DNA of 64,000 nt from an uncultured Bacteroidales bacterium (GTDB lineage: Bacteria > Bacteroidota > Bacteroidia > Bacteroidales > Bacteroidaceae). A program made the translations under genes and the position numbers. The stretch spans positions 62,001-126,000 of the forward strand of contig CADAEK010000003.1 in NCBI GenBank assembly GCA_902786925.1. Reading direction: 5' to 3'. Shown here in pieces: positions 877 to 62,509 of this stretch (within the stretch, counting starts at the first letter, position 1; the number at the start of each line of letters is the position of its first letter). The notes beneath the pieces are model-generated. The model was not told the origin of the DNA and searched no databases. It was given only the letters and a program-made list of their open reading frames with translations.

Positions 877-958
877 ACACCCTGCGCGTAATTAATTGCG
901 CACCCTGCACAATAAAATATGCGCACCCTGCGCGTTAATACACGTGCAGGGTGCGCAC
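877..958. repeat. 23-bp periodic array with core GCACCCTGC (family A, block 1)
   Basis: Four copies of a 9-bp core start at exactly 23-bp steps: ACACCCTGC at 877, GCACCCTGC at 900 and 923, and the inverted form GCAGGGTGC at 946. Flanking bases extend the core to TGCGCACCCTGCGC in the better copies, so a unit is close to an inverted repeat. The array lies in the 285-bp gap between the 3' end of ddh and the lipoprotein gene. A second block of the same family lies at 36629-36715. Confidence 0.85.
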
Positions 959-999
959 TATAGAGGGCCTACAAGGGCCTAAATTGCATCCTCAGAAGC

Positions 1000-1899
1000 T
1001 TAGACAAGGTGACGGATGAGTTCCTCCTTATCACCACACAGCATGTCGATGACAGGAATCTCAATCATTGTGTAAGCACCTGGCTGCTGCTTGAGTGATG
1101 CACGAGCCACATTGACGAGCACCTGAGCCGTAAGCGCAGGGTTGTTAATCTTCATATCGAACTCGAAGAGTTGGTTGTGGGTCTTACCACTAACGCCCTT
1201 GCGAACGAGGTTCACGCCATGACCTACGTCGTTGAGGGCATCTACGCATGGAACCTGCTGCACGTGTGTTTCGTCATTGACGAAGTAAGGGTCAGCCTTG
1301 ATAGCAGCCTCCACAGCCTTGAAATCAGCACCTTCTTCCAGCTCTACATATACCATGCGGCGGTGAATGCCTGTGCCTACAGGAATCGTCATAGAAAGGG
1401 CATCCTTCACGCCATCAATGGCACGCACAGCCACAGAGTGACCCATTGAACGGCCTGGACCAAAGTTTGTATAGCTTACGCCCTTAGGAGCAAGACTCTC
1501 CATGAGAGAGCGCACAATAGAGTCAGAACCTGGATCCCAACCAGCAGAAATAACAGAAACAGCATTGTTAGCCTTGGCCACAGCGTCAAGCGAACGACGA
1601 AGGTCAACAATCTGGGTGTGGATGTCAAATGAGTCAACAGTGTTGATACCCAAAGCAAGGCACTGCTTTGCATATTCTTCAACCTTACGGGTTGGAGTGG
1701 CAAGAATAGCCACCTGCACATCCTTCAGGTCTGTGATATTCTTTACTACTGGATAGTTGGCCAGTTCAGCAGGCTTGTTGGCTTCGCCGTTGCGACGAAC
1801 CACGCCTACACACTCCATGTCCTCAGAAGCCTCAATAGCCTCGAGTGCATACTTTCCAATGTTGCCATAACCTACGATGGCGGCACGAATCTTTGTCAT
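1000..1899 (-). CDS. ddh: meso-diaminopimelate D-dehydrogenase
   Basis: This enzyme reductively aminates tetrahydrodipicolinate to meso-diaminopimelate with NADPH and ammonia (EC 1.4.1.16), a one-step branch of lysine and peptidoglycan precursor synthesis. The N-terminus has the Rossmann motif VGYGNIGKYALEA (residues 9-21). Family segments follow: ILATPTRKVEEYAKQ, SFDIHTQIVDLR, SAGWDPGSDS and NFGPGRSMGHS. At 299 aa it is somewhat shorter than the classical enzymes of about 320 aa but complete at both ends. It lies 117 bp downstream of secDF. The secDF terminator lies in that gap, and I find no clear TAnnTTTG box for ddh, so its promoter is unknown. Three ACCTATA words lie just upstream (about 1926-1960). 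Confidence 0.93.
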   Translation of the reverse strand: MTKIRAAIVGYGNIGKYALEAIEASEDMECVGVVRRNGEANKPAELANYPVVKNITDLKDVQVAILATPTRKVEEYAKQCLALGINTVDSFDIHTQIVDLRRSLDAVAKANNAVSVISAGWDPGSDSIVRSLMESLAPKGVSYTNFGPGRSMGHSVAVRAIDGVKDALSMTIPVGTGIHRRMVYVELEEGADFKAVEAAIKADPYFVNDETHVQQVPCVDALNDVGHGVNLVRKGVSGKTHNQLFEFDMKINNPALTAQVLVNVARASLKQQPGAYTMIEIPVIDMLCGDKEELIRHLV

Positions 1900-1969
1900 A
1901 ATTTTGTGTTGGTCTAAATAATAAAACCTATAAGTCCTGTTTAACCTATATAATACCTATAATTCTTAT

Positions 1970-2004
1970 TATAAAGAAGGGCAGCAACGTGCATGTTGCT
2001 GCCC
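1970..2004 (-). terminator. Intrinsic terminator of secDF
   Basis: A perfect 10-bp stem (1979-1988 with 1995-2004, GGGCAGCAAC and its complement) closes a 6-nt loop. On the minus strand it is followed by TTCTTTATAAT, a moderate U tract. It begins 13 bp after the secDF stop codon. Confidence 0.85.
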
Positions 2005-2016
2005 TCCTTGTTTGAT

Positions 2017-5000
2017 TTATTGCTGAACCGGCTCCTCCTCAGCCTCCTTGATGCGGGCACCCATAACAAGGTAAGCCGTTGGAGCTGCAATGAAGAGCGA
2101 AGAACTTGTACCGATAATGACGCCAAGCATCATGGCGAAGGCGAAGGCACGAATGCTATCACCACCGAGGATGAAGATGACGAGCAGCACGATGAACGTA
2201 GATACTGAAGTATTGATGGTACGTGCGAGAGTGCTGTTGAGCGAATCGTTGAAGATACGCTGACGGTCACGCTTTGGATAGTTTCTGAAGGTCTCACGGA
2301 TACGGTCGAAGATGACCACCTTATCGTTGATGGAGTAACCAATCACCGTCAGGATGGCACCGATGAACGTCTGGTCAACCTCAAGAGAGAAGCCAATCCA
2401 ACCGTAGCAAAGCGAGAACATACCGATAACGAGCACTGTATCGAGGGTCAACGCAATGATAGAACCTACAGAGTATGCCACGTTGCGGAAACGAACGAGG
2501 ATATACACGAAGATAACCACAATAGCGAAGAGCACTGACAGAACAGCACCACGGAGGATGTCAGACGCAATGGCTGGACCTACCTTCTGAGACGACACGA
2601 TAGAACCGCCTTCACGATTGTCGCGGTCAAGGAAGGCCTCTTCTGAAACAGCCTTATCTACCATTCCACCGTCAACAAATGCCTGATAGAGCAGAGACTC
2701 AATGTGAGCATCGGCCTCAGAGCTATTGTCCTGAATATTGAAGTTAGTAGATACACGAACATTGTTGCCTTCAGTACCGATAGCGATAACAGTAACATTA
2801 ATGGCCTCATCATTCTTGTTGTTAGCCTCAAACTGCTTCACGATAGCGTTCTTGACAGCCTCAGGCTCTACCTGCTTGACAAACTCAACCTTGTAGTTGC
2901 GGCCACCTGTAAAGTCGATAGACTGGCTCAAGCCACGAACAGCAAAGCTTGCACAAACAACCAACAAGAAGATGCCGAAAGCGACAAAAGACTTCTTATA
3001 GTTGCCCATGAAATTGAAGGCAGTATCCTTCATCATGTTCTGAGAGAACTTGGTCGTGAACTTGATGTCCTGCCACTTGCCACGGTTTAGGAAGTGCTCG
3101 TAAGCAATACGAGTCATCCACACAGCAGTGAAGAATGAGCAAACGATACCAATGATGAGGGTGGTAGCGAAGCCCTTGATGGGACCAGTACCAAAGTTAT
3201 AAAGGATAACACCCGTGAGGATGGTTGTCACGTTTGAGTCGAAGATAGCAGAGAACGCGTTGCTGTAACCTGCTGCCACAGCGGCATTGATGTTCTTGCC
3301 GGCTCGCATCTCTTCCTTCGTACGCTCATAGATGAGCACGTTGGCATCGACTGCCATACCCAGTGTGAGCACCATACCTGCAATACCAGACATGGTCAAA
3401 GCTGCACCGAGTGAAGTGAGGATACCAAATGAGAAGAAGAAGTTGAGAATCAGTGCGCAGTTAGCCACCATACCTTCACGAGCACCATACATGACAACCA
3501 TGTAGAGCATCAGGATGATGAAGGCAACAATACAAGAGATGAAACCTGCCTGAATAGACTGAGCACCGAGCGTAGGACCAACGATGTCTTCCTGAATAAT
3601 CGTTGCAGGTGCAGGCATCTTACCAGACTGAAGCACGTTAGCAAGGTCCTTGGTCTCATTCGTAGTGAAGCTACCAGAAATCTGTGTGCTACCACCGTCA
3701 ATCTTGTTCATGACGTTTGGTGCGCTATACACCAAGTTATCCAGTACGATAGCCACACAGTGGTTTACATTAGCCTCGGTGAGAGCAGCCCACTTACGAG
3801 CGCCTTCTGTGTTCATCTTCATGCTGACAACGGGGTTGCCATACTGGTCAAAGTCATCCTTCGCCTCAGTCACAACGTCGCCCTCCAGCGGAGCACGTCC
3901 GTTAGGACCAGTAGTACGAATTGCATAAAGCTCAAAAATCTTGCCAGCCTTATCCATAGACTTCACGCCCCACTTGAGTGAGAGGTCAGCAGGGAAAATC
4001 TGCTTTGCCACCTCTGAATTGAGGAGCGCATTGATTTCAGCAGTATCAAGCGCCTGTGCAAGGCCGACCATGCAGCCACGCTGAGCACCTGTTGGCTGAA
4101 GCATAGCGAAGAGAGGGTTATCCTTCTTAGCAGCATCAGAAGCCTTAGTTGCCTGTGCAGCATTGTCCTCCACCTTATTCACCTGAGCCAGCACACTCGC
4201 AGCGCTCTTAGTAGTGTCAGCCACTTCTGCGACCTGCTCTGCAGCCACTGTATCAGCAGCAACAGAGTCTGTTGCATTCGCTACAGCACCACCATTGCGA
4301 AGAGCCGCATTGAGCTGTGAAAGGTAAGGTGCTACCTGAGGAGCGTCATAAGTCTCCCAGAACTCAAGGTTAGCGCTACCCTGAAGAAGTTTACGCACAC
4401 GCTCTGGCTCTTTAATGCCAGGAAGCTCGACCATGATGCGTCCGCTCTGTCCCTCAATCTTCTGAATGTTGGGCTGAACGACACCAAAACGGTCAATACG
4501 AGTACGGAGCACGTTGAATGAATTGTCAACTGCCTCGTCCACGCTCTTACGAAGAACCTTCTCCACTTCTGCATCGCTGCTGTTGGTGTTAACCTGTCCC
4601 TTCAGCTGCTGGGTAGCAAAGATTGCTGCAAGTGGCTTACCTGCCGCATTCTTTTTATACGCCTTGACAAAAAGTGTGATGAAATCGCTCTGACTCTCCT
4701 GTGCTTCCTTAGCTGCCTCGCTGACAGACTTCAGGAATGCCTCGTCAGTCTTGTGGTCCGCCAACGTCTTGACAACCTCAGGCACGCTTACTTCGAGGAT
4801 GACGTTCATACCGCCCTTCAGGTCCAGACCCAGACCGATGCCGGTTTCGCGACAGTCCTTCAGCGTGTAGTTGCCAAGGTAGAATGGAGTCGTGTTCAAC
4901 GAATCCAAATACAACTCAGCAGCCTGCTCGTCCATCTCTGCAGCCTTGTTTTCCACATACTTGGTAACAAAGCCGAAGGAGAGGTAGAAGAGGCAAATGA

Positions 5001-5046
5001 GCGTCAACGCCACTGCTACAAACTTTACAAATCCTTTGTTTTGCAT
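2017..5046 (-). CDS. secDF: Protein translocase subunit SecDF (fused)
   Basis: This is the proton-driven accessory subunit of the Sec translocon, which pulls exported proteins across the inner membrane. Both halves are in one chain of 1009 aa, as is usual in Bacteroidetes. The SecD half has an N-terminal membrane helix, the segment TGIGLGLDLKGGMNVILEV, the large periplasmic domain, and a membrane block with GMAVDANVLIYERTKEEMR. The SecF half starts near residue 660 and has SIDFTGGRNYKVEF and GYSINDKVVIFDRIRE. An Ala/Asp/Thr-rich stretch around residues 255-310 is a low-complexity insert in the periplasmic domain. The start is the ATG at 5046. A -7 box lies about 150 bp upstream and a strong terminator follows. 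Confidence 0.97.
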   Translation of the reverse strand: MQNKGFVKFVAVALTLICLFYLSFGFVTKYVENKAAEMDEQAAELYLDSLNTTPFYLGNYTLKDCRETGIGLGLDLKGGMNVILEVSVPEVVKTLADHKTDEAFLKSVSEAAKEAQESQSDFITLFVKAYKKNAAGKPLAAIFATQQLKGQVNTNSSDAEVEKVLRKSVDEAVDNSFNVLRTRIDRFGVVQPNIQKIEGQSGRIMVELPGIKEPERVRKLLQGSANLEFWETYDAPQVAPYLSQLNAALRNGGAVANATDSVAADTVAAEQVAEVADTTKSAASVLAQVNKVEDNAAQATKASDAAKKDNPLFAMLQPTGAQRGCMVGLAQALDTAEINALLNSEVAKQIFPADLSLKWGVKSMDKAGKIFELYAIRTTGPNGRAPLEGDVVTEAKDDFDQYGNPVVSMKMNTEGARKWAALTEANVNHCVAIVLDNLVYSAPNVMNKIDGGSTQISGSFTTNETKDLANVLQSGKMPAPATIIQEDIVGPTLGAQSIQAGFISCIVAFIILMLYMVVMYGAREGMVANCALILNFFFSFGILTSLGAALTMSGIAGMVLTLGMAVDANVLIYERTKEEMRAGKNINAAVAAGYSNAFSAIFDSNVTTILTGVILYNFGTGPIKGFATTLIIGIVCSFFTAVWMTRIAYEHFLNRGKWQDIKFTTKFSQNMMKDTAFNFMGNYKKSFVAFGIFLLVVCASFAVRGLSQSIDFTGGRNYKVEFVKQVEPEAVKNAIVKQFEANNKNDEAINVTVIAIGTEGNNVRVSTNFNIQDNSSEADAHIESLLYQAFVDGGMVDKAVSEEAFLDRDNREGGSIVSSQKVGPAIASDILRGAVLSVLFAIVVIFVYILVRFRNVAYSVGSIIALTLDTVLVIGMFSLCYGWIGFSLEVDQTFIGAILTVIGYSINDKVVIFDRIRETFRNYPKRDRQRIFNDSLNSTLARTINTSVSTFIVLLVIFILGGDSIRAFAFAMMLGVIIGTSSSLFIAAPTAYLVMGARIKEAEEEPVQQ

Positions 5047-5195
5047 TTTGTTGATTTTATTAATTGATTGATTGTTATTTGTTGTCTATAAACGAATGTT
5101 GTAAAGGCCTTAGAGACCGTACAGCCCACACGAATCAGCGCGCTACATATTATTATATAGAACGCGCGCATAAACAAGGTGGTGCATTCAAGATG

Positions 5196-5203
5196 CAAAG
5201 GTA
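5196..5203 (-). promoter_or_regulatory. -7 box upstream of secDF
   Basis: The minus strand reads TACCTTTG (TAnnTTTG). This would give an untranslated leader of about 140 nt. No TTTG is found at 19-23 nt spacing, so only the -7 half is supported. Confidence 0.45.
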
Positions 5204-5330
5204 TACATTTTTTTACAAAACAGAAGAATTTCCCAACAAATTTATTTGTTTCACAGCCATCGGGCAAACTCTTTTACTTCAAATCGCATCTGGCTACACA
5301 AAGGAGCAAGTCCACTTGCGCGCCATCGAC

Positions 5331-6410
5331 TCATTCTTCGTCGAAGCTGATATAGCAATAAATAGGATAGTGGTCACTGGCCTTAGCGGAGCGATCAACA
5401 ACGGCCTTATAGGCTTTGATGTTAGGACTGACGAGAATGTGGTCCAAGCGGAAATACATGCCACTGCGGTGGTAACTGATGCCAGGGCCATTTCCACTTC
5501 GTGTGTATGCATCGTTCAAGTCTTTCGTCAATCTGTAATGGGCATAGGAAATGGGAGATGCGTTAAAATCTCCACACACGACGATGTACTTCCCTTCATT
5601 TTGCTGGACAAAAGCCGCCACAGAGTCAACCTGCATACCACGCAACGAGTCAGGAGAGGCGAGCTTTCCGAATAGGTTAAAGAGCTTCTCCTCCGAATCG
5701 TTCTCTTCCGGGTGATTATAATTTTGGATAATGGACTTATAGTCATCTTTATCCGCTTGACTCAGCCGATAAGACTCCAAGTGATTGTTGACGACCAGCA
5801 CTGTCTTGTCGCCTACCGCCACCTCATAAGCGTAAGAAGCGTTTGATGAAGAGGCATAATCTATCTTCCGTTCCGACAGGATGGGATATTTAGAAAGGCA
5901 AGCAAGAAAATTCTTTTCGTCTTCACCCAAACTATAATAGGGATACTGCTCCTTCAGCACCTCCAGCGCCTTCTTTGTTTCTCCATTCGTAGCCTCTTGC
6001 AGACAAACAATATCGGCACCGCACCGCTGCAGATACATCACAATCTCATTCTCATTCCATGGGACATCCTTCTTGTCCCCAAAGGTCATGATGTTATAGG
6101 ACAGCACCTTGATAGCTCCAGTAGGAGGCTCTTGCACAAAATTCAAAGGGGCATATGTCCTGATGCTGGCAGCGCACAACAACATGCCCGCCAAAGAAAT
6201 CAGCACAAAACGCCTCTTGAAGATAAGCCAAAACAAAAGGAATGCCACATTCATTATAAGAAATAAAGGAAACCACATCCCGCTTTCTGACAATCGAGTG
6301 TATTGCTGAGGAGGCAACACAACCGAATAGGCACAAAAAATCATTGCCACCACCGTCAGAACGTTGATGACAATGAATATCGTTTTGGGTATGGTCTTCA
6401 GCAATCTCAT
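5331..6410 (-). CDS. Membrane-anchored endonuclease/exonuclease/phosphatase family protein
   Basis: The 359-aa protein starts with three hydrophobic helices (about residues 8-30, 44-64 and 68-86). A soluble domain of the metal-dependent EEP fold follows. Its motifs are in order: KVLSYNIM (metal-binding Asn), IVCLQEA (catalytic Glu), VVNNHLES (Asn and His), VVCGDFNASP (Asp and Asn) and the C-terminal SDHYPI (Asp-His). Members hydrolyse phosphodiester or phosphomonoester bonds in nucleic acids, lipids or inositol phosphates, and the substrate cannot be read from the sequence. The catalytic domain probably lies on the outer face of the inner membrane. The ATG overlaps the stop of the rhomboid gene by 4 nt (ATGA), so the two are translationally coupled. 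Confidence 0.88.
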   Translation of the reverse strand: MRLLKTIPKTIFIVINVLTVVAMIFCAYSVVLPPQQYTRLSESGMWFPLFLIMNVAFLLFWLIFKRRFVLISLAGMLLCAASIRTYAPLNFVQEPPTGAIKVLSYNIMTFGDKKDVPWNENEIVMYLQRCGADIVCLQEATNGETKKALEVLKEQYPYYSLGEDEKNFLACLSKYPILSERKIDYASSSNASYAYEVAVGDKTVLVVNNHLESYRLSQADKDDYKSIIQNYNHPEENDSEEKLFNLFGKLASPDSLRGMQVDSVAAFVQQNEGKYIVVCGDFNASPISYAHYRLTKDLNDAYTRSGNGPGISYHRSGMYFRLDHILVSPNIKAYKAVVDRSAKASDHYPIYCYISFDEE

Positions 6411-7315: not shown

Positions 7316-7366
7316 ACAAGCCTTACATTTAGTAGTCTATAACACGTTTATCTTTCTTTTCCGGTG

Positions 7367-7401: not shown

Positions 7402-7456
7402 AATCGGGAAAACACGCGCTTTTTTGACTTTTTTCAACATTTTTTTCAATAATTTG

Positions 7457-7591: not shown

Positions 7592-7864
7592 ATGAACAAG
7601 ACAGAACTCGTTAGCTCTATCGCAGCAAAGGCTGGTTTGAGCAAGGCTGATTCAAAGAAGGCTCTCGACGCAACAATCGAAGCAATTGCAGAAGCTCTTA
7701 AGGCTGGTGACAAGATTTCTCTCGTTGGTTTTGGCACATTTGCTGTTGCTGAGCGTCCTGCTCGTCAAGGCATCAACCCTGCAACCAAGGCTCCTATCTC
7801 TATCCCTGCCAAGAAGGTTGCTAAGTTCAAGGCTGGTTCTGACCTCGAAAGCGCTATCAACTAA
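7592..7864 (+). CDS. HU family DNA-binding protein
   Basis: This is a small nucleoid-associated protein of 90 aa that binds and bends DNA as a dimer. The sequence is a full-length bacterial HU/IHF fold: MNKTELVSSIAAKAGLSKAD, the signature region KISLVGFGTFAVAERPARQGINP, and a Lys-rich C-terminus with AKKVAKFKAGSDLESAIN. Codon use is strongly biased (AAG, GCT, CGT), as expected of a very highly expressed gene. It is monocistronic, with a good promoter upstream and a strong intrinsic terminator 34 bp after the stop. Confidence 0.95.
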   Translation: MNKTELVSSIAAKAGLSKADSKKALDATIEAIAEALKAGDKISLVGFGTFAVAERPARQGINPATKAPISIPAKKVAKFKAGSDLESAIN

Positions 7865-7897
7865 CTGTATAGTCGCCTAAGACAGAAAAAAAGAACA

Positions 7898-8034: not shown

Positions 8035-8149
8035 GACTTACCGGGCAAAACATTTTTTATGACTGAGCGAGCCGTCATGCTATGACCGAGCAAAGCATTT
8101 CGTTATAACTGAACAAAGCATCTTACTATGACTAAGTAAAACGTCTCGC
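8035..8149. repeat. 23-bp tandem array, unit like TATGACCGAGCAAAGCATTT (family E)
   Basis: Four consecutive 23-bp units start at 8058, 8081, 8104 and 8127. Each begins TATRACYRAGY or a near variant (TATGACTGAG, TATGACCGAG, TATAACTGAA, TATGACTAAG), and most continue with AAAGC. A weaker fifth copy, offset by one base, precedes them at about 8035-8057. The array sits in the 537-bp gap between HU and the next gene. The rest of that gap holds the HU terminator and the downstream promoter. I see no open reading frame or RNA gene in it. Confidence 0.75.
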
Positions 8150-8338
8150 CAAGAATGGGAAAGGACTGTTCTACTCTACACCGAGTCAAAAGATGTCCCA
8201 CTTATGAAAGTCACTGCTTTACATAGACTTCTGTCCACAACCCTGCAATATACAAACAATGGTATCAGCTCAATCTAGGGACTATCCCACACCGACTGTA
8301 TCGAAATACGCTTATACTATCATTTTTTTATCTTTTTT

Positions 8339-10289: not shown

Positions 10290-11684
10290 ATGATTATGAA
10301 ACACATAAAGTCTATCATTGCGGTTGCAGTTCTTGGAATGGCCTCAACTGCAACAGCCCAGAACCTCAACACTGGATACTTCAACGACGGTTACTTATAC
10401 CGCCATGAGGTAAACCCCGCTTTTGGCAACAACCAAGGCTATGTGGCAATGCCCGGCATCGGTAACCTCAACGTAGGCGTGAACAGTAACCTCCGCGTGG
10501 ACAATATCTTCTATAATGTGAATGGCCGCACCGCCCTGTTCCTCAATCCTGAAGTGAGCGACCAGAAGTTCCTTCGCCACATCAAGACGAAGCACAAGAT
10601 TTACGAGGACCTCAAGTTGCAGGTATTAGGCGTAGGCTTCAAAGCATTTGGCGGCTACAACACCGTCGAAATCAATGCACGCCAGAGCTTGCAGCTCAAT
10701 GTGCCTGGTTCCCTCTTGCGACTGGCCAAGGAAGGTGCACAGAACAAAACCTACCAAATCAACAAGTTGGCAGCGCATGTTGACGCCTATGCAGAATTGG
10801 CATTGGGTCACAGCCACCAGATTGACGAGCACCTCCGCGTAGGTGGTAAGGCTAAGCTCCTGCTCGGTATCGGTAACATGGATGCCGACTTCCGCAAGGC
10901 TACTCTCACTTTGGGTGAGGACAAATGGACCGCCATCACCGATGCCAAGGTGCAGACCAGCCTTAAGAGGATGAAATACAAGATGGAAGAAAAAGAACGC
11001 GGTGCAGATGGTGAAGAAACCACCCACCGCTATGTCAGCGGCATCGAAGACACCAACTGGAGTGTGGACGGTGTGGGCGTAGCGTTCGACCTCGGTGCAG
11101 AATACAAAGTGGACGACAACTGGTCTTTCTCTGCTGCTGTGCTCGACCTTGGCTTCATCAACTGGAACAACAACTACGTGGCTTCGACCCGTGGCGAACG
11201 TTTGGTGAATACCGACACGCACCTCTTCAGCTTGGACGATGACAAAGACAACTCGTTCGAAAGAGAAGGTGACCGCCTGATGGAAGACATTGCCAAACTC
11301 TATGAGCTGGATGATCTCGGCGATCAGGGCAAACGTTCTCGCATGCTGGCCACCACCATCAATGCAGGCGTTGAGTACACTCCTGATTTCTATGACAAGC
11401 TGTCCATCGGTCTCTTGAGCAGCACCCGTGTGGCTGGCAAATACACCACCACAGAGGTACGTCTCTCAGCCAATGTGTCGCCTACCAACATCTTCTCAGC
11501 CTCAACCTCTCTGGCTGTGAACTCCTTCGGCACAAGCTTTGGATGGCTCATCAACTTCCACCCATGCGGCTTCAACATCTTCCTTGCTACCGACCACCAG
11601 TTTGGCAAGATGTCCAAGCAGGCCATCCCACTCTCAGGCAGAGCTAACGTGAACTTTGGCATTAACTTCCCATTCGGACATTAA
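10290..11684 (+). CDS. DUF5723 family outer membrane beta-barrel protein
   Basis: The 464-aa protein has a signal peptide (MKHIKSIIAVAVLGMASTATAQ) and a mature start typical of DUF5723 proteins: LNTGYFNDGYLYRHEVNPAFGN. Many alternating hydrophobic strands follow, for example LKLQVLGVGFKAFGGY and NWSFSAAVLDLGFINW, and the protein ends in an aromatic-rich strand (VNFGINFPFGH). The family is confined, as far as I know, to Bacteroidetes and has no established function. The upstream lipoprotein gene is 22 bp away. A perfect terminator follows. The first ATG is at 10290, and a second at 10296 gives the more usual signal peptide start. Confidence 0.78.
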   Translation: MIMKHIKSIIAVAVLGMASTATAQNLNTGYFNDGYLYRHEVNPAFGNNQGYVAMPGIGNLNVGVNSNLRVDNIFYNVNGRTALFLNPEVSDQKFLRHIKTKHKIYEDLKLQVLGVGFKAFGGYNTVEINARQSLQLNVPGSLLRLAKEGAQNKTYQINKLAAHVDAYAELALGHSHQIDEHLRVGGKAKLLLGIGNMDADFRKATLTLGEDKWTAITDAKVQTSLKRMKYKMEEKERGADGEETTHRYVSGIEDTNWSVDGVGVAFDLGAEYKVDDNWSFSAAVLDLGFINWNNNYVASTRGERLVNTDTHLFSLDDDKDNSFEREGDRLMEDIAKLYELDDLGDQGKRSRMLATTINAGVEYTPDFYDKLSIGLLSSTRVAGKYTTTEVRLSANVSPTNIFSASTSLAVNSFGTSFGWLINFHPCGFNIFLATDHQFGKMSKQAIPLSGRANVNFGINFPFGH

Positions 11685-11710
11685 TGCAACCCATACTATT
11701 CATCAAGCGC

Positions 11711-11750
11711 AAGGGGCTGTGTCAACGACGACACAGCCCCTTGTGTTTTT
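11711..11750 (+). terminator. Intrinsic terminator after the DUF5723 gene
   Basis: A perfect 13-bp stem (11711-11723 with 11730-11742, AAGGGGCTGTGTC and its complement) closes a 6-nt loop and is followed by GTGTTTTT. Confidence 0.92.
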
Positions 11751-11773
11751 CCCCTCACCTTACGCCTCAAAAA

Positions 11774-11838
11774 CGGTGTGAGTCACACCGCATAGGTCGG
11801 TCTGAGTCACACCGGCACCCTCGGTCTGAGTCACACCG
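11774..11838. repeat. 24-bp periodic palindromic element (family B, copy 1)
   Basis: Three 17-bp units start at 11774, 11798 and 11822, exactly 24 bp apart. The first, CGGTGTGAGTCACACCG, is a perfect palindrome around its central base. The other two read CGGTCTGAGTCACACCG. The 7-bp spacers are CATAGGT and GCACCCT. The element lies between the convergent 3' ends of the DUF5723 and YqaA-like genes. A second copy at 47351-47415 differs at only 2 of 65 positions. Confidence 0.92.
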
Positions 11839-11854
11839 ATTTTGTAGTGCAACG

Positions 11855-12310
11855 TCAGCGAAGGGCAACCGCTGAATAAGCGACAATCATGTAACGAGTA
11901 AACTTGCCCACGAACGACCAGAAGATGACACCCCACATGTTGGCGCGCAAGATGCCCAGCGAGATAGATATAGCCGTTCCAAACACAGGGAGGAAAGAGA
12001 AGGCAGCAATCCATGAGCCTCTTTTCTCCACATAATCACGCGTCTTGCACAGACGTCTCTCCTTCACATGCATCCAATGCGCTATCTGCTCAATGCTGCC
12101 AATACGCCCGATGCAATAATTGAACATCGAGCCCAACACATTGCCGATGGTTCCGCTTATCACAGTGAGCATAGGGTCCATGCCCGTAGTGACCAGCAAA
12201 GCGCCCATCACCGCCTCGGAGCTGAAAGGCACAAACGTGCCCGCCAGAAAAGAGGCCATTGCCATGCCCCAGTAGCCGTATTCTATGAAAAACTGATTAA
12301 GTGGATCCAT
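11855..12310 (-). CDS. YqaA-like membrane protein (DedA/VTT superfamily)
   Basis: The 151-aa integral membrane protein has the VTT-type pattern FLAGTFVPFSSEAVMGALLVTTG, the Gly-rich segment ISGTIGNVLGSMFNYCIGR, the Arg-containing FSFLPVFGTAISISLGILR, and a C-terminal helix. Length and motifs agree with the YqaA branch of the DedA/SNARE-associated superfamily. Better studied DedA relatives move lipid carriers or support membrane homeostasis, but the role of YqaA is not settled. It lies 13 bp downstream of the membrane protein gene at 12324, so the two are probably co-transcribed. Confidence 0.85.
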   Translation of the reverse strand: MDPLNQFFIEYGYWGMAMASFLAGTFVPFSSEAVMGALLVTTGMDPMLTVISGTIGNVLGSMFNYCIGRIGSIEQIAHWMHVKERRLCKTRDYVEKRGSWIAAFSFLPVFGTAISISLGILRANMWGVIFWSFVGKFTRYMIVAYSAVALR

Positions 12311-21560: not shown

Positions 21561-21631
21561 CCTTCATCGCAATTACCTATCAGCCAACAACGTAATTACG
21601 ATGAAGGCGGTATCGTATTTACGATGAAAGG
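21561..21631. repeat. 23-bp spaced repeat with core TTACGATGAAGG (family D)
   Basis: Two direct units, CGTAATTACGATGAAGGC at 21591 and CGTATTTACGATGAAAGG at 21614, are exactly 23 bp apart. An inverted unit, CCTTCATCGCAATTAC, lies at 21561-21576. The block begins 30 bp after the dipeptidyl peptidase stop codon. The inverted pair can form a hairpin. No U tract follows closely. Confidence 0.75.
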
Positions 21632-36628: not shown

Positions 36629-36715
36629 CGTGCACCCTGCGCTTGTTTAATTGCGCAGGGTGCACGTTTATTTATGCGCAGGGTGCTTGAAATCACTTGC
36701 GCAGGGTGCGCACGT
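36629..36715. repeat. 23-bp periodic array with core GCAGGGTGC (family A, block 2)
   Basis: Four copies of the core start at 36632 (inverted, GCACCCTGC), 36655, 36678 and 36701 (GCAGGGTGC), each exactly 23 bp after the last. The best copy reads TTGCGCAGGGTGCGCACG. The block lies between the convergent ends of dacB and purD and has the same period and core as the block at 877-958. Confidence 0.9.
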
Positions 36716-38141: not shown

Positions 38142-38239
38142 AGTGAAAAGTGAAGAGTGAAAAGTGAAAAATCAAAGATACTCACCACCCGAAAGGCTTG
38201 TAATATAGATTTTTCACTTTTCACTCTTCACTTTTCACT
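38142..38239. repeat. Perfect 31-bp inverted heptad arms between purD and cysE
   Basis: The left arm (38142-38172) and right arm (38209-38239) are exact reverse complements over 31 bp. Each is built of AGTGAAA/AGTGAAG heptads. The 36-bp loop between them contains CACCACCCGAAAGGC and no gene. The arms lie just inside the -7 boxes of the two divergent genes. Confidence 0.92.
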
Positions 38240-38248
38240 TCTTTTCCC

Positions 38249-45221: not shown

Positions 45222-45284
45222 GGCTATCCTTTGTCGTTTTAGCATTTTTTACTGTGGTTGCAAGCAGCCCAAATCTATCCACAT
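45222..45284 (-). promoter_or_regulatory. SAM-II riboswitch in the metK leader
   Basis: The minus strand shows the ordered SAM-II (metA motif) landmarks. TGTGG (45283-45279) pairs with CCACA (45257-45253) as P1. Inside it are GATTTG and CTTGCA. After it come TAAAAAA, GCTAAA (45243-45238) and AAAGG (45232-45228), as in the pseudoknot 3' strand. GGCT in the loop can pair with AGCC at 45225-45222. The same AGCC is also part of a downstream hairpin (GCCTC/GAGGC at 45210-45224) followed by GGTGTTTTG, so two exclusive folds are possible. The leader is about 155 nt. The call rests on remembered consensus. Confidence 0.72.
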
Positions 45285-45298
45285 TTTGAAAATCGCTG

Positions 45299-47350: not shown

Positions 47351-47415
47351 CGGTGTGACTCACACCGCATAGGTCGGTCTGAGTCACACCGGCACCCCCG
47401 GTCTGAGTCACACCG
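47351..47415. repeat. 24-bp periodic palindromic element (family B, copy 2)
   Basis: Three 17-bp units start at 47351, 47375 and 47399, with spacers CATAGGT and GCACCCC. The first unit, CGGTGTGACTCACACCG, is palindromic and the others read CGGTCTGAGTCACACCG. The element matches the copy at 11774-11838 at 63 of 65 positions. It lies 77 bp after the stop of the secreted metalloprotease-like gene, in the 368-bp gap 47125-47492, where I see nothing else besides the promoter. Confidence 0.92.
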
Positions 47416-56279: not shown

Positions 56280-56797
56280 ATTAGACCAATGATTTGATTG
56301 ACGTAATTCTGAATTTGTTCTTGGGTGTGAATAGTATCTATCTTCAAGACATGCTTGGCTTTCTGATAAAAAGGAAGCCGCTTTTGGAGCGAGTCCTTAA
56401 TATAGGCAATAAGCTCTTCGTCTGTTTTACCCACAATGAGGGGACGAATCGTTTTGCCCATATGAAGATGCTCGTTAAGCACTTGAGGCGAGGCATCGAG
56501 AAAGATGGTTTCACCACGAGTGTTCATATAATCCATATTATCGAAGAAGCAGGGTGTCCCGCCACCACACGAGATGATGACATCTTCAAACTCCGCAACC
56601 TCATGCAGCATCTTTTGCTCGATACTGCGGAAGCCTTCCTCCCCCTTTTCTGCAAAGATATCAGGAATCTTCTGATGGAAACGGTCCTCAATATAATTAT
56701 CCAGGTCGTAGAAGTCCAGCCCAAGGGTACGTGCCAACACTTTACCAATGGTCGTCTTCCCTGCCCCCATATAACCTATCAGAATAATACGGGTCAT
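56276..56797 (-). CDS. aroK: Shikimate kinase AroK
   Basis: AroK phosphorylates shikimate with ATP on the way to chorismate. The 173-aa protein has the Walker A motif GYMGAGKTTIGKVLA (residues 8-22), the shikimate-binding DLDNYIEDRF with FRSIEQKMLHEV, the GGG motif in VIISCGGGTPCF, and the lid with Arg (KTIRPLI). It is of normal length. The start overlaps the topA stop by 4 nt and its own stop overlaps the speA start by 4 nt. Confidence 0.95.
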   Translation of the reverse strand: MTRIILIGYMGAGKTTIGKVLARTLGLDFYDLDNYIEDRFHQKIPDIFAEKGEEGFRSIEQKMLHEVAEFEDVIISCGGGTPCFFDNMDYMNTRGETIFLDASPQVLNEHLHMGKTIRPLIVGKTDEELIAYIKDSLQKRLPFYQKAKHVLKIDTIHTQEQIQNYVNQIIGLI

Positions 56798-59124
56798 GCT
56801 TTCGATGCAGATTTACGTCCACGCTTAGCTGCTGCTTTGGCAGGCTGTGGAGTATTGATAATGTTCATGCACTCTTCATAAGTGAGGTTGGCAGGCTCCT
56901 TGATTGTACGCGGCAACTTATAGTTAGCACCCTTATACTTTAGATAAGGGCCAAAACGGCCATTCATTACCTCCAGCTCTGCATCCTCCTCAAACGTCTT
57001 AATATGAGCAGAAGCTTCACCCTGACGACGCTCCTCAATAAGACTGATGGCCTCTTCAAGTGTAATGCGCATGGGATCGGCACCCTTAGGCAGAGAAACG
57101 TACTTCTTCTTGTGAAGCACATAAGGGCCAAAGCGACCAGCTCCTACAGTAACGTTTTCGCCTTCATATTCACCCAGTTCACGAGGAAGTTTGAAGAGAT
57201 CAAGCGCTTCTTCAAGAGTGATGGTAGCAATGCTCTGCCCCTTGTTGAGCTGAGCGAAACGTGGCTTTTCATTCTCGTCAGCAACGCCAATCTGCACCAT
57301 CGGGCCAAAACGACCTATCTTCACACTAACAGGCTTTCCTGTTCCTGGTTCTGTTCCCAAAACGCGCTCGCCGACCTTGTGCTCACTCTTCTCTTGCAAA
57401 GTTGCATCTACCATCGGTTCCAGCTTGGAGTAGAAGTCTCGCATCATTTCGTGCCAATTCTCTCTTCCATCGGCAATCTCGTCAAACTCCTTCTCCACAT
57501 TGGCTGTGAAATTGTAGTCAACAATATCAGGGAAAGACTGAATAAGGAAGTCATTCACAACTGTACCTATATCCGTTGGAATAAGCTTTCCCTTCTCATT
57601 ACCTACAATTTCTTTTTTAGTAGATTTCTTCAACTTACCTGCCGACAACTTAATGATGGCATAGCTACGCTCTTCACCCTTCTTATCGCCTTTTTCCACA
57701 TACTCACGCTGCTGGATGGTCGATATTGTTGGCGCATAAGTAGAAGGACGGCCAATGCCGAGCTCCTCCAGCTTCTTCACCAAGCTTGCCTCTGTGTAAC
57801 GCAAAGGATGCTGAGTGAAGCGTTGAGTCGCCACCATCTCCTTCATCTGCAAGGTTTCACCCTCTTTCACGGTTGGGAGCAGACCCTCGGCCTCTTCCTG
57901 CTGACTGTCGTCATCATAAGATTCTTTGTAAACACGCAAGAAACCATCAAAGGTAATCACCTCACCTGTTGCAACAAAAGATGCGCCGGTCTCCGCATTA
58001 GAGATGGTGATAGTCGTCTTCTCCGCCTCTGCATCTGCCATCTGGCAAGCTACAGTACGTTTCCAAATCAAATCGTAGAGACGCTTTTCCTGTGAATTGC
58101 CCGTAATCTCATGCTCGGCGACAAAGGTTGGACGGATGGCCTCGTGCGCTTCCTGTGCTCCCTTTGAACTTGTATGGAACTGGCGAGGCTTAGAGTAGCG
58201 CTCTCCATGTATCTTGGCAATCTCTTCCTTCGTCGAATTGATACAAAGCGAGGAAAGATTCACAGAGTCTGTTCGCATATAAGTAATGTGTCCAGATTCA
58301 TACAAGTGCTGTGCCACCATCATGGTCTGGCTTACAGTAAAGCCAAGCTTGCGCGCCGCTTCTTGCTGCAAGGTTGAAGTGGTGAAAGGAGGCGCAGGGC
58401 TCTTCTTCACTGGCTTCTTTTCAATGTCGGTGATGGTAAATTCCTTATCTTTGCAAGAAAGCAAGAATTGCTCTGCTTCCTCTTCAGTCTTGAAGTTGTG
58501 TCCCAATGAAGCCTTGATTTCCTGGCCTTCGCCCATAAACACAGCATTCACGCGGTATGAGAACTCGCTATGGAAGTTCTCAATCTCTTTCTCACGCTCC
58601 ACAATCAAGCGCACAGCCACGCTCTGCACACGCCCTGCTGAAAGACTGGGTTTAAGTTTCTTCCACAACACTGGAGAAAGCTTGAAACCCACAATGCGGT
58701 CAAGCACACGACGTGCTTGCTGAGCATTCACCAGTCCCATATCAATAGTACGTGGCGTCTCGATAGCCTTCAAGATTGCAGTCTTCGTAATCTCATGGAA
58801 GACAATTCTTTTTGCCGCCTTAGGATCAAGCCCCAACACTTGGCTCAAATGCCAAGAGATAGCCTCTCCCTCGCGGTCTTCATCGGAAGCCAACCAAACT
58901 GTATCAGCTTTCTTAGCCTCATTGCGGAGGCTCTTCACAACGCTCTCCTTATCAGAAGGGATCTCATACTCTGGCGAGAAATCATCCAGATTCACACTCA
59001 TCTCCTTCTTCTTCAAATCACGGATATGCCCGTATGAGGACATCACTTTGTAATCCTTGCCAAGAAACTTCTCCAGCGTCTTTGCCTTAGCAGGAGACTC
59101 GACAATCACTAAGTTTTTCTGCAT
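56794..59124 (-). CDS. topA: DNA topoisomerase I TopA
   Basis: TopA relaxes negative supercoils through a transient 5' phosphotyrosine. The 776-aa protein has the TOPRIM domain (LVIVESPAKAKTLEKFLG, SDEDREGEAISWHL), the catalytic Tyr in HITYMRTDSVNLS near residue 283, and C-terminal repeats without a clear zinc-ribbon Cys pattern: KIGRFGPMVQIG, GAGRFGPYVLHKKKY and NGRFGPYLKYKG. It ends in a basic Lys/Arg/Ala tail (AKAAAKRGRKSASKA). This is the Bacteroidetes-type arrangement. It is the first gene of a probable five-gene run. Confidence 0.96.
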   Translation of the reverse strand: MQKNLVIVESPAKAKTLEKFLGKDYKVMSSYGHIRDLKKKEMSVNLDDFSPEYEIPSDKESVVKSLRNEAKKADTVWLASDEDREGEAISWHLSQVLGLDPKAAKRIVFHEITKTAILKAIETPRTIDMGLVNAQQARRVLDRIVGFKLSPVLWKKLKPSLSAGRVQSVAVRLIVEREKEIENFHSEFSYRVNAVFMGEGQEIKASLGHNFKTEEEAEQFLLSCKDKEFTITDIEKKPVKKSPAPPFTTSTLQQEAARKLGFTVSQTMMVAQHLYESGHITYMRTDSVNLSSLCINSTKEEIAKIHGERYSKPRQFHTSSKGAQEAHEAIRPTFVAEHEITGNSQEKRLYDLIWKRTVACQMADAEAEKTTITISNAETGASFVATGEVITFDGFLRVYKESYDDDSQQEEAEGLLPTVKEGETLQMKEMVATQRFTQHPLRYTEASLVKKLEELGIGRPSTYAPTISTIQQREYVEKGDKKGEERSYAIIKLSAGKLKKSTKKEIVGNEKGKLIPTDIGTVVNDFLIQSFPDIVDYNFTANVEKEFDEIADGRENWHEMMRDFYSKLEPMVDATLQEKSEHKVGERVLGTEPGTGKPVSVKIGRFGPMVQIGVADENEKPRFAQLNKGQSIATITLEEALDLFKLPRELGEYEGENVTVGAGRFGPYVLHKKKYVSLPKGADPMRITLEEAISLIEERRQGEASAHIKTFEEDAELEVMNGRFGPYLKYKGANYKLPRTIKEPANLTYEECMNIINTPQPAKAAAKRGRKSASKA

Positions 59125-59164
59125 ATATTGTTGTTTATTCTATTCTTTTTGAGAAAATCGGGTG

Positions 59165-59172
59165 CAAAGGTA
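59165..59172 (-). promoter_or_regulatory. -7 box of the topA operon
   Basis: The minus strand reads TACCTTTG, 40 bp upstream of the topA ATG. The -33 position is AT-rich (TATATATA) and lacks TTTG. Confidence 0.55.
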
Positions 59173-59322
59173 AATAAAATATTTCTTCTCTTATATATAT
59201 AATGTGTAATTTTTTGAAAAATACAAAGCTCTTGTGCTATTTCCACTATTCAAGAGCCACTAGTTTTGCCCTTTCGGAAAGATTTGTTTCATAATTGCAA
59301 GGAGAAGGAGTAGAGAATATCG

Positions 59323-59330
59323 TAACTTTG
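59323..59330 (+). promoter_or_regulatory. -7 box of the GH3 gene
   Basis: TAACTTTG fits TAnnTTTG, 99 bp upstream of the ATG. The nearest TTG upstream is at 25 nt spacing, too long for confidence. The 305-bp gap 59125-59429 holds this and the topA box and nothing else I recognise. Confidence 0.5.
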
Positions 59331-59429
59331 TCATGCTTATTCATTTAAGGGCCCATTAAACTGCTTTTACTGCTTGATTAGAACTAATAACACTCATTAT
59401 ATTTTTAACCAAAACTCAAATAACCTAGT

Positions 59430-62378
59430 ATGAAGAAAATCCATTCTGCCGTGATGGGGCTGATGATGATAGCCTCAACATCGCTGGCACAAACACAGAA
59501 GAGTCCCGTTACATTTAACGCATATGAGTGGGACTTTGGCACTATCAATGCCATGAAAGGAACAGTCTGCCACACGTTCACGCTGAAAAACACGTCGAAT
59601 GCAGCAATCAAGATTGGCAGGGCCATTCCAAGTTGCGAGTGCATCAAGGCACATTATCCCCAAGAGGCTATCTTGCCTGGAGAGGTAACCAAGGTCATGG
59701 TCGCCATGTCTCCTTCTGGCTCATCGGGGAAGACATACCGCAGCGTCGAATTGGTGGACACAGAAGGACGCACACTTGGCACCCTTTCGACAAAGGCCGT
59801 TGTTGAAGAGAAGACCCCTTCTTTTCTGATGCCCGACGGAGAGACGTATCCTTTCCAAAACCCGAATCTTTCTAACGAAGAGCGCGTGGAGAATCTCCTT
59901 TCGCTCCTTACGCCAGAAGAGAAGGTTGGACTGATGATGAACAAATCCGTTTCCGTCGATCGCCTCGGCATTCCATCCTATAACTGGTGGAGTGAAGCCT
60001 GCCACGGTGTTCGCCAAGGAGGCTATACCGTATACCCACAGCCTATTGGCATGGCAGCCGCATTCAGCGAGAAGCTGGTTTACGATGTATTCTCCACTGT
60101 ATCTGATGAAGCACGTGCCAACTGGAATCGTTCTGACCATAACGTGTTCAATGTGCCAATGGGAGTCACTTACTACCCAGGCAATCCTGAACTGACGTTT
60201 TGGTGTCCAAACGTGAACATCTTCCGCGACCCTCGCTGGGGACGTGGCCAAGAGACTTGCGGTGAAGACCCATACCTAAATGCTGTGCTGGGCGTACAGA
60301 CCGTACTTGGCATGCAAGGAAATGACGACAAGTACTTCAAGACCCATGCTTGCGCAAAGCACTATGCTGTGCACAGCGGACCAGAGCCTTTGCGCCACAC
60401 CTACAATGCCTCTGTTTCCATGCGAGACCTATGGGAAACATATCTACCAGCATTCAAAGCCTTGGTGAAGAAAGGCAATGTACGTGAGGTGATGTGTGCC
60501 TACAACCGCTACGAAGGCAAGCCTTGCTGCACCAGCGACCGCCTCTTGGTCGATATCCTTCGCCGCAAATGGGGCTACAACGCTATTGTTGTGACCGACT
60601 GCGACGCCATCAACAACTTCTATAACAAGGGACAGCATGAGACGCACCCTGACCCACTTTCTGCTTCTGTAGATGCCGTGCTGAATGGCACCGACCTCGA
60701 GTGCGGAAAGGTCTTCATGGTTCTGACAGAAGCTTTACAGAAAGGCCTCATCCAAGAATCCACGCTGGACGACCACTTGCGCAAGACACTTATGGGCCGC
60801 TTCGAGTTAGGCATGTTTGATCCTGCCGACATGCTGCCATGGGCCAACCTCGGTCCTGAAGTCATCAGCAGCGAGTCCAACAACGACCTTGCCACCCAAG
60901 CAGCCCGCGAGTCGATGGTACTGCTGAAAAACAACGGTGTCCTTCCCCTCTCTAAAAGCCTCAAAAACATCGCAGTAGTGGGTCCGAATGCAGACGACAC
61001 CGAACTGCTCAACGGTAACTATGGCGGCACCCCCACCAAAGAGCATACACACTCTCTGCTGGAAGGTATCCGCAATGCCGTGCCCAACGCTAACATCTTC
61101 TACAAGAAGGCTTGCGAACTCAACGACGAATATGCCACCGTTCATCATCTGAGCGATTTCAACGATGGCAAAGGCGTGCGTGTTGAGTTCTTCAATAACA
61201 ACTCATTGAGCGGCAATCCCGACAAGACCGACTACTACAACGAGCTTAACTTTAGCACGTTCGGTGCATGGGGATTTGCTCAAGGCATCAGCAAGGACAC
61301 CCTCTCTGTTCGAGTATCAGGCACATATAAGGCAACCTTCACTGGCGACATGAAATACACCCTCTCCACCGACAACGGCTATGTGCTCAAGGTGAATGGT
61401 GAAGTGGTAGAGGAAGCCTCTGCTGGTGGCCGCCGTGGCGGTTTCGGCTTTGGACGCAACGTGCAGTACAAGTCCTTCCCCGTAGAAGAGGGCAAGACCT
61501 ATGATGTCGTGATTGAGTACAAACATGGCAACGGCAACTTCGCCATGCTACGTGGTGACATCTGCGAACGCAAGCCCGTTGAGTTCACCGACCTTGCCGA
61601 GGAAGTGAAGAACATGGATGCCATTATCATCATCGGCGGCATCTCTGCACGAATGGAAGGAGAAGGCGGAGACAAGGCTGACATTGAACTGCCTATCGTA
61701 CAACAGCGTTTGGTGAAGGCCATGCACGCCACAGGAAAACCCGTCGTGTTCGTCAACTGCTCTGGTTCTGCCATCGCTTTCGGCAGCGTGGAAGACAGCT
61801 ACGACGCGCTTCTTCAGGCTTGGTACCCCGGACAGGGTGGAGCTAAAGCCTTGGCAGAAGTGCTCTTCGGCGACTATAACCCTGGCGGCAAACTGCCCGT
61901 CACATTCTATCGCTCCAACGATGACCTTCCCGATTTCCTTGACTACAGCATGGACAATCGCACCTACCGCTATTTCCAGGGCGCCCCACTCTATGCCTTC
62001 GGCCAAGGACTCTCATACACCACCTTCTCGGTAGGCAAAGGCAAGTTGTCAAAAAGCGCCATGAAAGCAGACGGAGCCGTGAAACTGACTGTTCCTGTCA
62101 CAAATACAGGTAAACGTGAAGGTACCGAAACAGTACAAGTCTATGTGAAGGCTCTTGACTATCCCGAGGCCCCCATCAAGTCGCTCAAAGGATTCCAGAA
62201 GTTAGCACTTCAAGCAGGCGAAACAGGAAAAGCAATCATCACGCTGGACGGTGAAGCCTTTGAGTATTACGATCCTTCTATTGACGAGCTCTCTACTCGT
62301 CCAGGACGATACCAGATTCTTTACGGTACCTCTTCGCTCGACAGCGACTTGCAGAGCCTCATCTTTGTAGTGAAATAA
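59430..62378 (+). CDS. Secreted glycoside hydrolase family 3 enzyme with N-terminal DUF1573 domain
   Basis: The 982-aa protein has a signal peptide (MIASTSLAQ), then a DUF1573 domain (about residues 28-135: WDFGTINAMKGTVCHTF and IPSCECIKAHYP). The GH3 catalytic barrel follows (about 165-470), with NWWSEACHGVR, AKHYAVHSGPE and the nucleophile Asp in VVTDCDAINN near residue 390. The second GH3 domain is interrupted by a PA14-like insert (about 580-700), and a fibronectin-like C-terminal domain ends it. The substrate is likely a beta-xyloside or beta-glucoside, judging from the nucleophile context. A Gly/Arg-rich loop (GGRRGGFGFGRN) lies in the insert. There is no SusC/SusD pair nearby. Confidence 0.9.
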   Translation: MKKIHSAVMGLMMIASTSLAQTQKSPVTFNAYEWDFGTINAMKGTVCHTFTLKNTSNAAIKIGRAIPSCECIKAHYPQEAILPGEVTKVMVAMSPSGSSGKTYRSVELVDTEGRTLGTLSTKAVVEEKTPSFLMPDGETYPFQNPNLSNEERVENLLSLLTPEEKVGLMMNKSVSVDRLGIPSYNWWSEACHGVRQGGYTVYPQPIGMAAAFSEKLVYDVFSTVSDEARANWNRSDHNVFNVPMGVTYYPGNPELTFWCPNVNIFRDPRWGRGQETCGEDPYLNAVLGVQTVLGMQGNDDKYFKTHACAKHYAVHSGPEPLRHTYNASVSMRDLWETYLPAFKALVKKGNVREVMCAYNRYEGKPCCTSDRLLVDILRRKWGYNAIVVTDCDAINNFYNKGQHETHPDPLSASVDAVLNGTDLECGKVFMVLTEALQKGLIQESTLDDHLRKTLMGRFELGMFDPADMLPWANLGPEVISSESNNDLATQAARESMVLLKNNGVLPLSKSLKNIAVVGPNADDTELLNGNYGGTPTKEHTHSLLEGIRNAVPNANIFYKKACELNDEYATVHHLSDFNDGKGVRVEFFNNNSLSGNPDKTDYYNELNFSTFGAWGFAQGISKDTLSVRVSGTYKATFTGDMKYTLSTDNGYVLKVNGEVVEEASAGGRRGGFGFGRNVQYKSFPVEEGKTYDVVIEYKHGNGNFAMLRGDICERKPVEFTDLAEEVKNMDAIIIIGGISARMEGEGGDKADIELPIVQQRLVKAMHATGKPVVFVNCSGSAIAFGSVEDSYDALLQAWYPGQGGAKALAEVLFGDYNPGGKLPVTFYRSNDDLPDFLDYSMDNRTYRYFQGAPLYAFGQGLSYTTFSVGKGKLSKSAMKADGAVKLTVPVTNTGKREGTETVQVYVKALDYPEAPIKSLKGFQKLALQAGETGKAIITLDGEAFEYYDPSIDELSTRPGRYQILYGTSSLDSDLQSLIFVVK

Positions 62379-62445
62379 ACAAGGTCTTGCAAGAAAAGAG
62401 AATGAGGCGTGTCAAAAGAGATGCCTCCAGAACCTCAAAATCGAA

Positions 62446-62509
62446 GTCCCCCACACCGGTCAACCGATGTGGGGGACTTTGACTAACCGATGTGGGGCAC
62501 ATCAGTTTT
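62446..62509. repeat. Repeat element with core ACCGATGTGGGG, also a terminator (family C)
   Basis: GTCCCCCACA (62446-62455) pairs perfectly with TGTGGGGGAC (62468-62477), with CGG/CCG inside, forming a long hairpin. A second direct copy of AACCGATGTGGGG starts 23 bp after the first (62462 and 62485). The second copy forms GATGTG-GGG-CACATC followed by TTTTTT, which fits an intrinsic terminator for the GH3 gene. The element lies between the convergent GH3 and ruvB genes. Confidence 0.75.

Follow-up and report, generated by a model that had tools for sequence, protein, structure and literature searches.

Within a stretch of 64,000 nucleotides from an uncultured member of the Bacteroidaceae (hereafter the window), small tandem arrays built on different short cores recur with a distance of 23 or 24 bp between their units, and the question raised by this locus is what gives different sequences the same period. 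A preliminary description had regarded the arrays as several unrelated repeat families placed after the 3' ends of genes and had suggested a shared machinery, for example a polymerase slippage process with a fixed step or a protein family with variable specificity. The window corresponds to C3:62001-126000 of the source genome (G000; 2.59 Mb in 48 contigs, 92% complete), which was compared with other genomes, 55-99% complete and denoted below by G numbers. Among these, the close relative G010 is collinear with G000, at 88-95% identity across large aligned blocks.

Arrays of the window and their families

The cores named in the preliminary description are all present at the seven places given for them, at which the following features are located (a strand is given where one is assigned).

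877..954, no strand: family B array of four units, core GCA-SSS-TGC, step 23 bp, starts at 877, 900, 923 and 946 (TRF)
8058..8150, plus strand: family E array of four TATGACYGAGCAAAGC-like units, step 23 bp, starts at 8058, 8081, 8104 and 8127
11765..11774, plus strand: left end motif of the A element, CCTCAAAAAC
11775..11837, no strand: family A array of three units, GGTSTGASTCACACC, step 24 bp, starts at 11775, 11799 and 11823
11838-11851: right end of the A element, GATTTTGTAGTGCA, bearing the inverted motif
21563..21630, no strand: family D, two direct TTACGATGAAGG units with one 23-bp interval, starts at 21596 and 21619
36632..36709, no strand: family B array of four units, step 23 bp, starts at 36632, 36655, 36678 and 36701
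47352..47414, no strand: family A array of three units, step 24 bp, starts at 47352, 47376 and 47400
62449..62497, no strand: family F5, ACCGATGTGGGG units with one 23-bp interval, starts at 62463 and 62486

The last unit of the first B array is inverted, and its spacers are 14 bp long and AT-rich. Inverted copies also accompany family D, at 21563 and out of step, and family F5, at 62449. The D locus is conserved in G010, which also harbors orthologues of the F5 array and of the A array at 47352..47414, the latter with one flipped centre. By eye, a second E-like array was recognized at C3:163549 of the same genome, and an F5-similar array of three units in G007. The genes flanking the arrays are ordinary: the B array at 36632..36709 sits between convergent genes for an S13 peptidase and purD, the F5 array is flanked by GH3 and ruvB genes, and the Pfam names obtained for flanking genes are diaminopimelate dehydrogenase, DUF5723, VTT domain, DPP IV, S13 peptidase, phosphoribosylglycinamide synthetase, GH3 and RuvB, with 1 of 10 flanking proteins lacking a Pfam match. 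A 90-aa HU-family DNA-binding protein (7592-7864, plus strand; PF00216, E 1.5e-32) is encoded immediately upstream of the E array. Elsewhere, the window holds a SAM-II riboswitch aptamer (45229-45288, minus strand; 57 bits against a gathering cut-off of 44) and, between divergent genes, two opposed 7-bp microsatellites (AGTGAAA and TTTTCAC) that form an inverted repeat (38142-38240).

Core A has 69 matches on the plus strand and 75 on the minus strand of G000, against 0 for the core read backwards, and 98 of 114 A arrays from seven genomes comprise three units. Family B contributes 32 unit pairs genome-wide, all 32 of them at 23 bp even though 22-24 bp was permitted. The other 23-bp families of G000, grouped by eye, are TGTTACA-NN-TGTAACA, F4 (ACCGAYGTC-NNN-GAYRTCGGT), F5, E and a GCTTTGCCCGTAAGC type. 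In G015, the palindromes GAGTTAACTC and GAACATATGTTC, which themselves offer hardly any space for an RNA hairpin, obey the same rule at a 22-bp step. A further core, CGTACCCCTCGGGTACG, was observed at a 23-bp step in G002 (L154:9864-9934), with similar units in G035 and G013. The core A loci with a named source come from Prevotellaceae, Bacteroidaceae or Bacteroidales MAGs, several of them bearing RUG names or labelled as goat reticulum.

A periodic signal in intergenic DNA

The periodic signal is real and strong, involves multiple families, and is larger than first claimed. For a sample of 450 kb of G000 (C2, parts of C3, and the window), the autocorrelation of intergenic 8-mers at lags of 22, 23 and 24 bp was 111, 105 and 92, compared with 2.0, 0 and 1.0 in Markov-1 shuffles and 1.2, 2.0 and 7.2 in genes scaled to an equal number of words. 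The peak at 23-24 bp restricted to intergenic DNA that the preliminary description had anticipated is therefore found against both shuffles and genes, and sister species do carry different cores. The height of the signal at lag 22 is mostly owed to two long arrays, at C2:66119 and C2:242496. These intergenic arrays (C2:66119-66274 and C2:242496-242783; L027 and L036) consist of CTAGG/CTCCTTTAGTG-like units of 11 bp and show lags of 11, 22, 33 and 44, half of the main step and its multiples; they may be related to the arrays described here.

A pair finder whose sole requirement is that two quasi-palindromes be similar returned 45 pairs at 21-25 bp from the same 450 kb, where 0.8 were expected, with 43 of these at 23-24 bp and 2 at 21-22 bp; shuffles gave about 0.1 pairs per spacing. 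Nine pairs were present at 10-14 bp (0.4 expected), 1 at 15-20 bp, 1 at 26-31 bp, 3 at 32-40 bp and 25 at 41-50 bp, and 23 of these last 25 lie at 46 or 48 bp, the double step. Contig starts of five genomes of the genus (G002, G015, G025, G030 and G033), sampled blind to arrays, gave 24 pairs at 21-25 bp against 0.6 expected. Of these 24, 13 belong to three arrays of G015, including a plain minisatellite, and chance may account for several of the remainder, which are AT-rich. Stretches of G012, G036, G038, G032, G013 and G034, partly picked around known hits, held 25 pairs against 0.8. Other genera of the family gave 10 pairs at 21-23 bp against 0.8 expected, mostly of two units, such as GACCTAGGTC in G049, and some of low complexity. 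Four stretches from other families gave 1 pair against 0.8 expected.

Step length by species

When G000 was searched with a single-unit pattern, all 42 A intervals were 24 bp long, and the same is true of all 212 intervals over seven genomes, the loci of the six relatives having mostly been fetched by a 24-bp pattern. A search for A with free spacing (2-24 bp; palindromic places appear on both strands) was evaluated by counting steps from coordinates by eye, save for 67 G019 rows. Among the matches listed, core A has a step of 24 bp in G021 (11/11), G013 (88/88), G036 (7/7) and G030 (18/19), and a step of 23 bp in G043 (23/25), G007 (24/25), G023 (10/12), G032 (5/5) and G019 (97/100; 67 scripted and 33 by eye). 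For G002, 6 of the 8 matches listed are at 24 bp and 2 at 25 bp. One core thus takes its step genome by genome. The step is not invariant, as is evident from the 25-bp interval in G002 and from one A array in G038 that mixes a 23-bp and a 24-bp interval. The F4 centres are of the CCC/CCG types in 43 of 43 units in G013 and of the GAC/GTC types in 21 of 26 units in G036. Taken as a whole, core and step look like properties set at the level of the genome.

Dyad symmetry without base pairing

The units are dyad-symmetric in a manner that does not depend on base pairing. For family B, the outer pairs are Watson-Crick in 9, 8 and 5 of 17 units, compared with 7.7, 8.9 and 6.2 after shuffling, and since the arms do not covary, the expectation under a pairing constraint fails. 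Perfect palindromes of F4 are rarer than independent halves predict, at 5 of 43 units where 14.4 were expected and 4 of 26 where 8.3 were expected. The G019 spacers fit RCYNNRGY in 63 of 64 rows, and their outermost pair is Watson-Crick in 13 of 64. One mismatched stem pair is found in 40 of the 65 A units of G000. A coherent change of the outer pair from C-G to A-T in G013 was considered and rejected, as the pairs there are a mixture (AT 13, GT 7, AC 6, CT 2, TT 2, AG 1; n = 31). Judging from the sequences, the constraint is on a dyad in the purine/pyrimidine pattern, as would be imposed by a dimeric protein or a reader of DNA shape, and symmetry without base pairing makes both RNA hairpins and REP-type hairpins unlikely.

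Conserved cores within arrays that arrive and disappear

Eight orthologous A arrays could be compared between G000 and G010. Their core arms changed at 3 of 288 positions, with 0/48 changes in the outer pair and 0/48 at positions 4/12, compared with 10/112 in the spacers and 38/304, 68/632 and 139/1432 in the flanks (Fisher p 3e-4 or smaller). The core arms thus evolve about tenfold more slowly than the flanks, an estimate for which the arrays were picked by the pattern fit of the G000 copy, a choice that might conceal roughly half of the changes in the cores but not nine tenths of them. Loci within a family share descent, and unit counts are therefore not independent. The number of units differs between the two genomes in the B array at C3:98632 (36632 in the window; four in G000 and three in G010), in the E array at C3:70058 (8058 in the window; four and six), and at L270 and L278 (one and three, with orthology judged by eye from the flanks). 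Among the A arrays, 5 of 24 dyad centres are flipped between C and G, and one F4 array has its middle unit exactly inverted along with the half-spacers, as judged by eye. The compared arrays keep their place in both genomes, except for the TGTTACA array at C3:26622, where the gap in G010 holds other DNA. About 0.95 kb of G010 (C21 ~177717-178674) is missing from G000 and ends just before an F4 array.

The families had been described as unrelated, and this is only partly right, since A and F4 have common flanking ends in G000. In G000, the end motif TTCCTGCACCTCAAAAWCGG, examined also with a view to an autonomous partner with such ends, was matched 16 times when up to 3 mismatches were allowed, against 1 per strand for the backwards control, and all 16 abut A or F4 cores (9 loci inspected and the rest judged by coordinates, with 8% of the genome missing). 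End motifs are inverted on both A and F4, yet the left and right ends of a single element are often unlike. Species groups vary in the outer half of the end (TTCCTGCACC.. in G000 and G010, TTCCACTRCC.. in G012 and G036, and GCTCGTCACC.. in G034). Orthologous gaps free of arrays exist, too diverged for placing a junction or a target-site duplication. The inverted ends and the presence or absence of arrays in the same gap show that arrays arrive, or get lost, as elements. A closing RNA stem formed from both ends was also considered and rejected, as in none of 7 genomes did pairability exceed that of shuffled ends by more than rounding (0.557 against 0.634 in G000; 0.700 against 0.699 in G038).

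Gene context and gene-gap slots

Every array of the window abuts a 3' end, as the preliminary description had noted, but genome-wide there is no significant preference for this placement. Family A occupies convergent gaps in 16 of 61 cases, compared with 68 of 381 intergenic regions without A (chi-square p=0.28), and lies between divergent genes in 14 of 61. For all families in the 450 kb, arrays are found in 8 of 33 convergent, 9 of 76 tandem and 3 of 33 divergent gaps. These gap classes derive from crude gene calls (ORFs of at least 90 aa). The orientation of arrays relative to genes is near random and therefore implies no regulated gene.

Two gene gaps, or slots, were followed through 30 loci each, and different cores were found to occupy one and the same gap. 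Slot 1 adjoins the gene at 11855-12310, which has a match in 45 of 45 genomes of the genus (a weak relative, 28% identical, in G011, G020 and G021); array readings here were made by eye. Of the seven genomes in which the DUF5723 neighbour is kept, G000 and G010 carry A at step 24, G043 carries A at step 23, G032 has CGGAGTC-CCC-GACTCCG, G035 has a weak CGTACCCC-type candidate, and in G034 and G017 an array is absent. Next to another neighbour, the 3' side of this gene contains F4 types in G012 (CCC centre) and G036 (GTC centre, identical arms), TGTAGCA/TGCTACA in G038, TGTTACA/TGTAACA in G013, A at step 23 in G019, and weaker candidates in G018 and G033. None was seen within 420 bp (156 bp in G023) at the remaining 16 of the 30 loci. 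Slot 2 is the convergent gap around 36632, whose gene pair is kept in 13 genomes: B is present in G000 and G010, and G032 and G043 combine a B-like pair with an F4-like array; in G034, G024, G019, G009, G015 and G023 the gap measures 3-125 bp and has no array, and a clear array is absent from the inspected parts of longer gaps in G025, G026 and G017. Where purD has a different neighbour, an A array lies on its 3' side in G013, G038 and G002, and in G007 an F5-like array. It is clear from the six genomes that keep the convergent pair with an array-free gap that arrays are dispensable at a slot.

Arrays as proposed ladders of protein-binding sites

Our preferred reading, held with about even confidence, is that the arrays are ladders of sites for dimeric DNA-binding proteins of differing specificity, and that the arrays spread as small elements and then came under selection. 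Each array would offer two to five, usually three, dyad-symmetric sites to a putative dimeric protein, and the sites would lie one dimer-length apart (22-24 bp, just over two helical turns), such that neighbouring dimers would touch. The core families may have readers that differ in specificity, or a single protein may read them with a specificity that changes from species to species. The arrays would have dispersed in the form of short elements whose ends are inverted, with whole units gained or lost through recombination or slippage, and the cores would afterwards have been held by purifying selection. A protein that reads the sequence is favoured by the slow cores, the exact step, and the genome-level choice of core and step. 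We infer the protein as reader, its cooperative binding, and a role in nucleoid architecture or as a roadblock or insulator between transcription units. The earlier suggestion of a protein family with variable specificity accords with the conserved arms, the non-pairing symmetry, and the setting of core and step at the genome level. A bolder proposal, possible yet somewhat doubtful, is that a chromosome-wide set of such ladders has its core sequence and its step (22, 23 or 24 bp) recast jointly from one related species to another, along with the reader family, constituting a coevolving architectural or insulating code that is unlike REP, MITE, iteron and operator systems and in which selection acts against perfect hairpins.

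The copies are dispersed, arrays are present or absent in the same gap, an orientation rule is missing, and the inverted ends vary by species group and are common to A and F4, all of which would suit selfish REP/BIME- or MITE-like elements that are non-autonomous and mobilized in trans by a transposase, with palindromes and ends as recognition sites of the mobilizer and otherwise neutral. We consider this explanation unlikely, as the cores stay, after insertion, tenfold more conserved than flanks and ends, and the arrays of G000 and G010 are co-located except at C3:26622, which implies little recent movement. PF01797 (RAYT) was searched for at E<=0.001 in 18 A-bearing genomes; it is above the cut-off in G003, G019, G030 and G041, there are sub-cut-off matches only in 3, and none was found in 11, G000 included. 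G019 is very rich in A (98+116 matches), and its PF01797 gene favours mobilization; a role for RAYT may apply to these four genomes and is rejected for G000 and the 10 other A-bearing genomes without a match. The exact A-pair and B-triple were not found in viral contigs, nor was similarity to 11700-11870 of the window found in phages or plasmids, and an origin from either was rejected on these grounds. A purely neutral origin as minisatellites, with slippage in replication or template switching proceeding by a fixed step, seems very improbable. The slippage process proposed earlier would account for the whole units that orthologues gain and lose, the C-G flips of dyad centres and the inversion of the F4 middle unit are expected of template switching, and one plain 23-bp minisatellite does exist in G015 (L157:17012). 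However, slippage leaves unexplained that spacers of unrelated sequence hold an exact length, one core is dispersed over many loci, the cores are conserved relative to the spacers, and quasi-palindrome repair would yield perfect palindromes, which F4 avoids.

The arrays might instead function at the RNA level, as hairpins in tandem at which transcripts end or by which they are protected, possibly as bidirectional terminators, and for family A there are data in keeping with this: outer A units can fold into 6-7-bp stems, and a T-run is present at 130 of 190 outer ends, at both ends in 41 of 95 three-unit arrays and at one end in 48. A terminator role may fit these T-runs. However, they are independent of stem perfection (72/103 against 58/87, p=0.64), and a perfect GC stem directly before a T-run, as in an intrinsic terminator, was not the arrangement found. 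F4 avoids perfect stems, outermost Watson-Crick pairs are few in the G019 spacers, covariation is lacking in the B outer pairs, mismatches are frequent in the A stems of G000, the stems of some families are too short for RNA, and the placement of 14 of 61 A arrays between divergent genes also argues against this account. Rfam gave 9 matches in the window with E values of up to 1, and none of them overlaps an array; the sole match near one (11702-11747) is far under the gathering score and falls on the preceding terminator. A terminator scan of 11600-12000 called none, and by eye a 7-bp stem followed by T5 is discernible on the minus strand at 11775. We therefore regard an RNA-level explanation as improbable.

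Relation to known systems

REP/BIME elements are small arrays between genes, made up of short palindromic units with linkers, with many copies and several families per genome, and the arrays described here resemble them in being dispersed intergenic palindromic units. They differ from REP/BIME with RAYT (Y1) in their exact step, in the avoidance of perfect palindromes by F4, and in that 11 of the 18 genomes bearing core A have no match to RAYT. REP units are true hairpins with conserved pairing, and what was found instead is an under-representation of perfect palindromes in F4 and no covariation in B; membership among REP elements fails on pairing and, in those 11 genomes, on RAYT. The nearest precedent for the step is provided by the operators OR and OL of phage lambda, each with three quasi-palindromic sites in a row whose centres are about 23-24 bp apart; mycobacteriophage stoperators are many sites scattered across a genome. 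As in operator arrays, dyad sites at a fixed spacing that appear to be under selection are present here, but the arrays are chromosomal, numerous and built on many cores, with no tie to a promoter or a phage. The iterons and centromere repeats of plasmids are likewise sites for protein binding in tandem, spaced by about two helical turns, but they are single-locus elements of a replicon, whereas the arrays described here are dispersed over the chromosome.

The BrickBuilt MITE of Porphyromonas gingivalis is described as a 23-nt tandem repeat that is always intergenic, has short inverted-repeat ends, and varies in unit number among strains (PMC4596501). The 23-nt step and the intergenic site are common to both systems. 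BrickBuilt is one sequence family, with direct repeats that lack spacers inside a longer MITE (PMC4596501), whereas the present arrays are built on many cores, have few units, which are quasi-palindromic, and contain spacers that are variable but of fixed length; a defined spacer-free 23-nt repeat within a leader and a tail was not what these arrays contain. Six core strings were not found in 5.39 million open-access papers, a scope outside which most subscription papers fall, and keyword searches returned nothing relevant.

If the arrays bind protein, array-rich genomes of Prevotellaceae would each hide dozens of occupied intergenic sites whose specificity shifts between relatives, and the slots, with one gene gap and one layout but different cores, would provide natural replicates for studying the coevolution of a protein and its sites. 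If they are selfish, they would represent a class of short palindromic elements, mostly without RAYT, whose cores are conserved nonetheless. Under either reading, the step of 22-24 bp is a simple search signature for further genomes.
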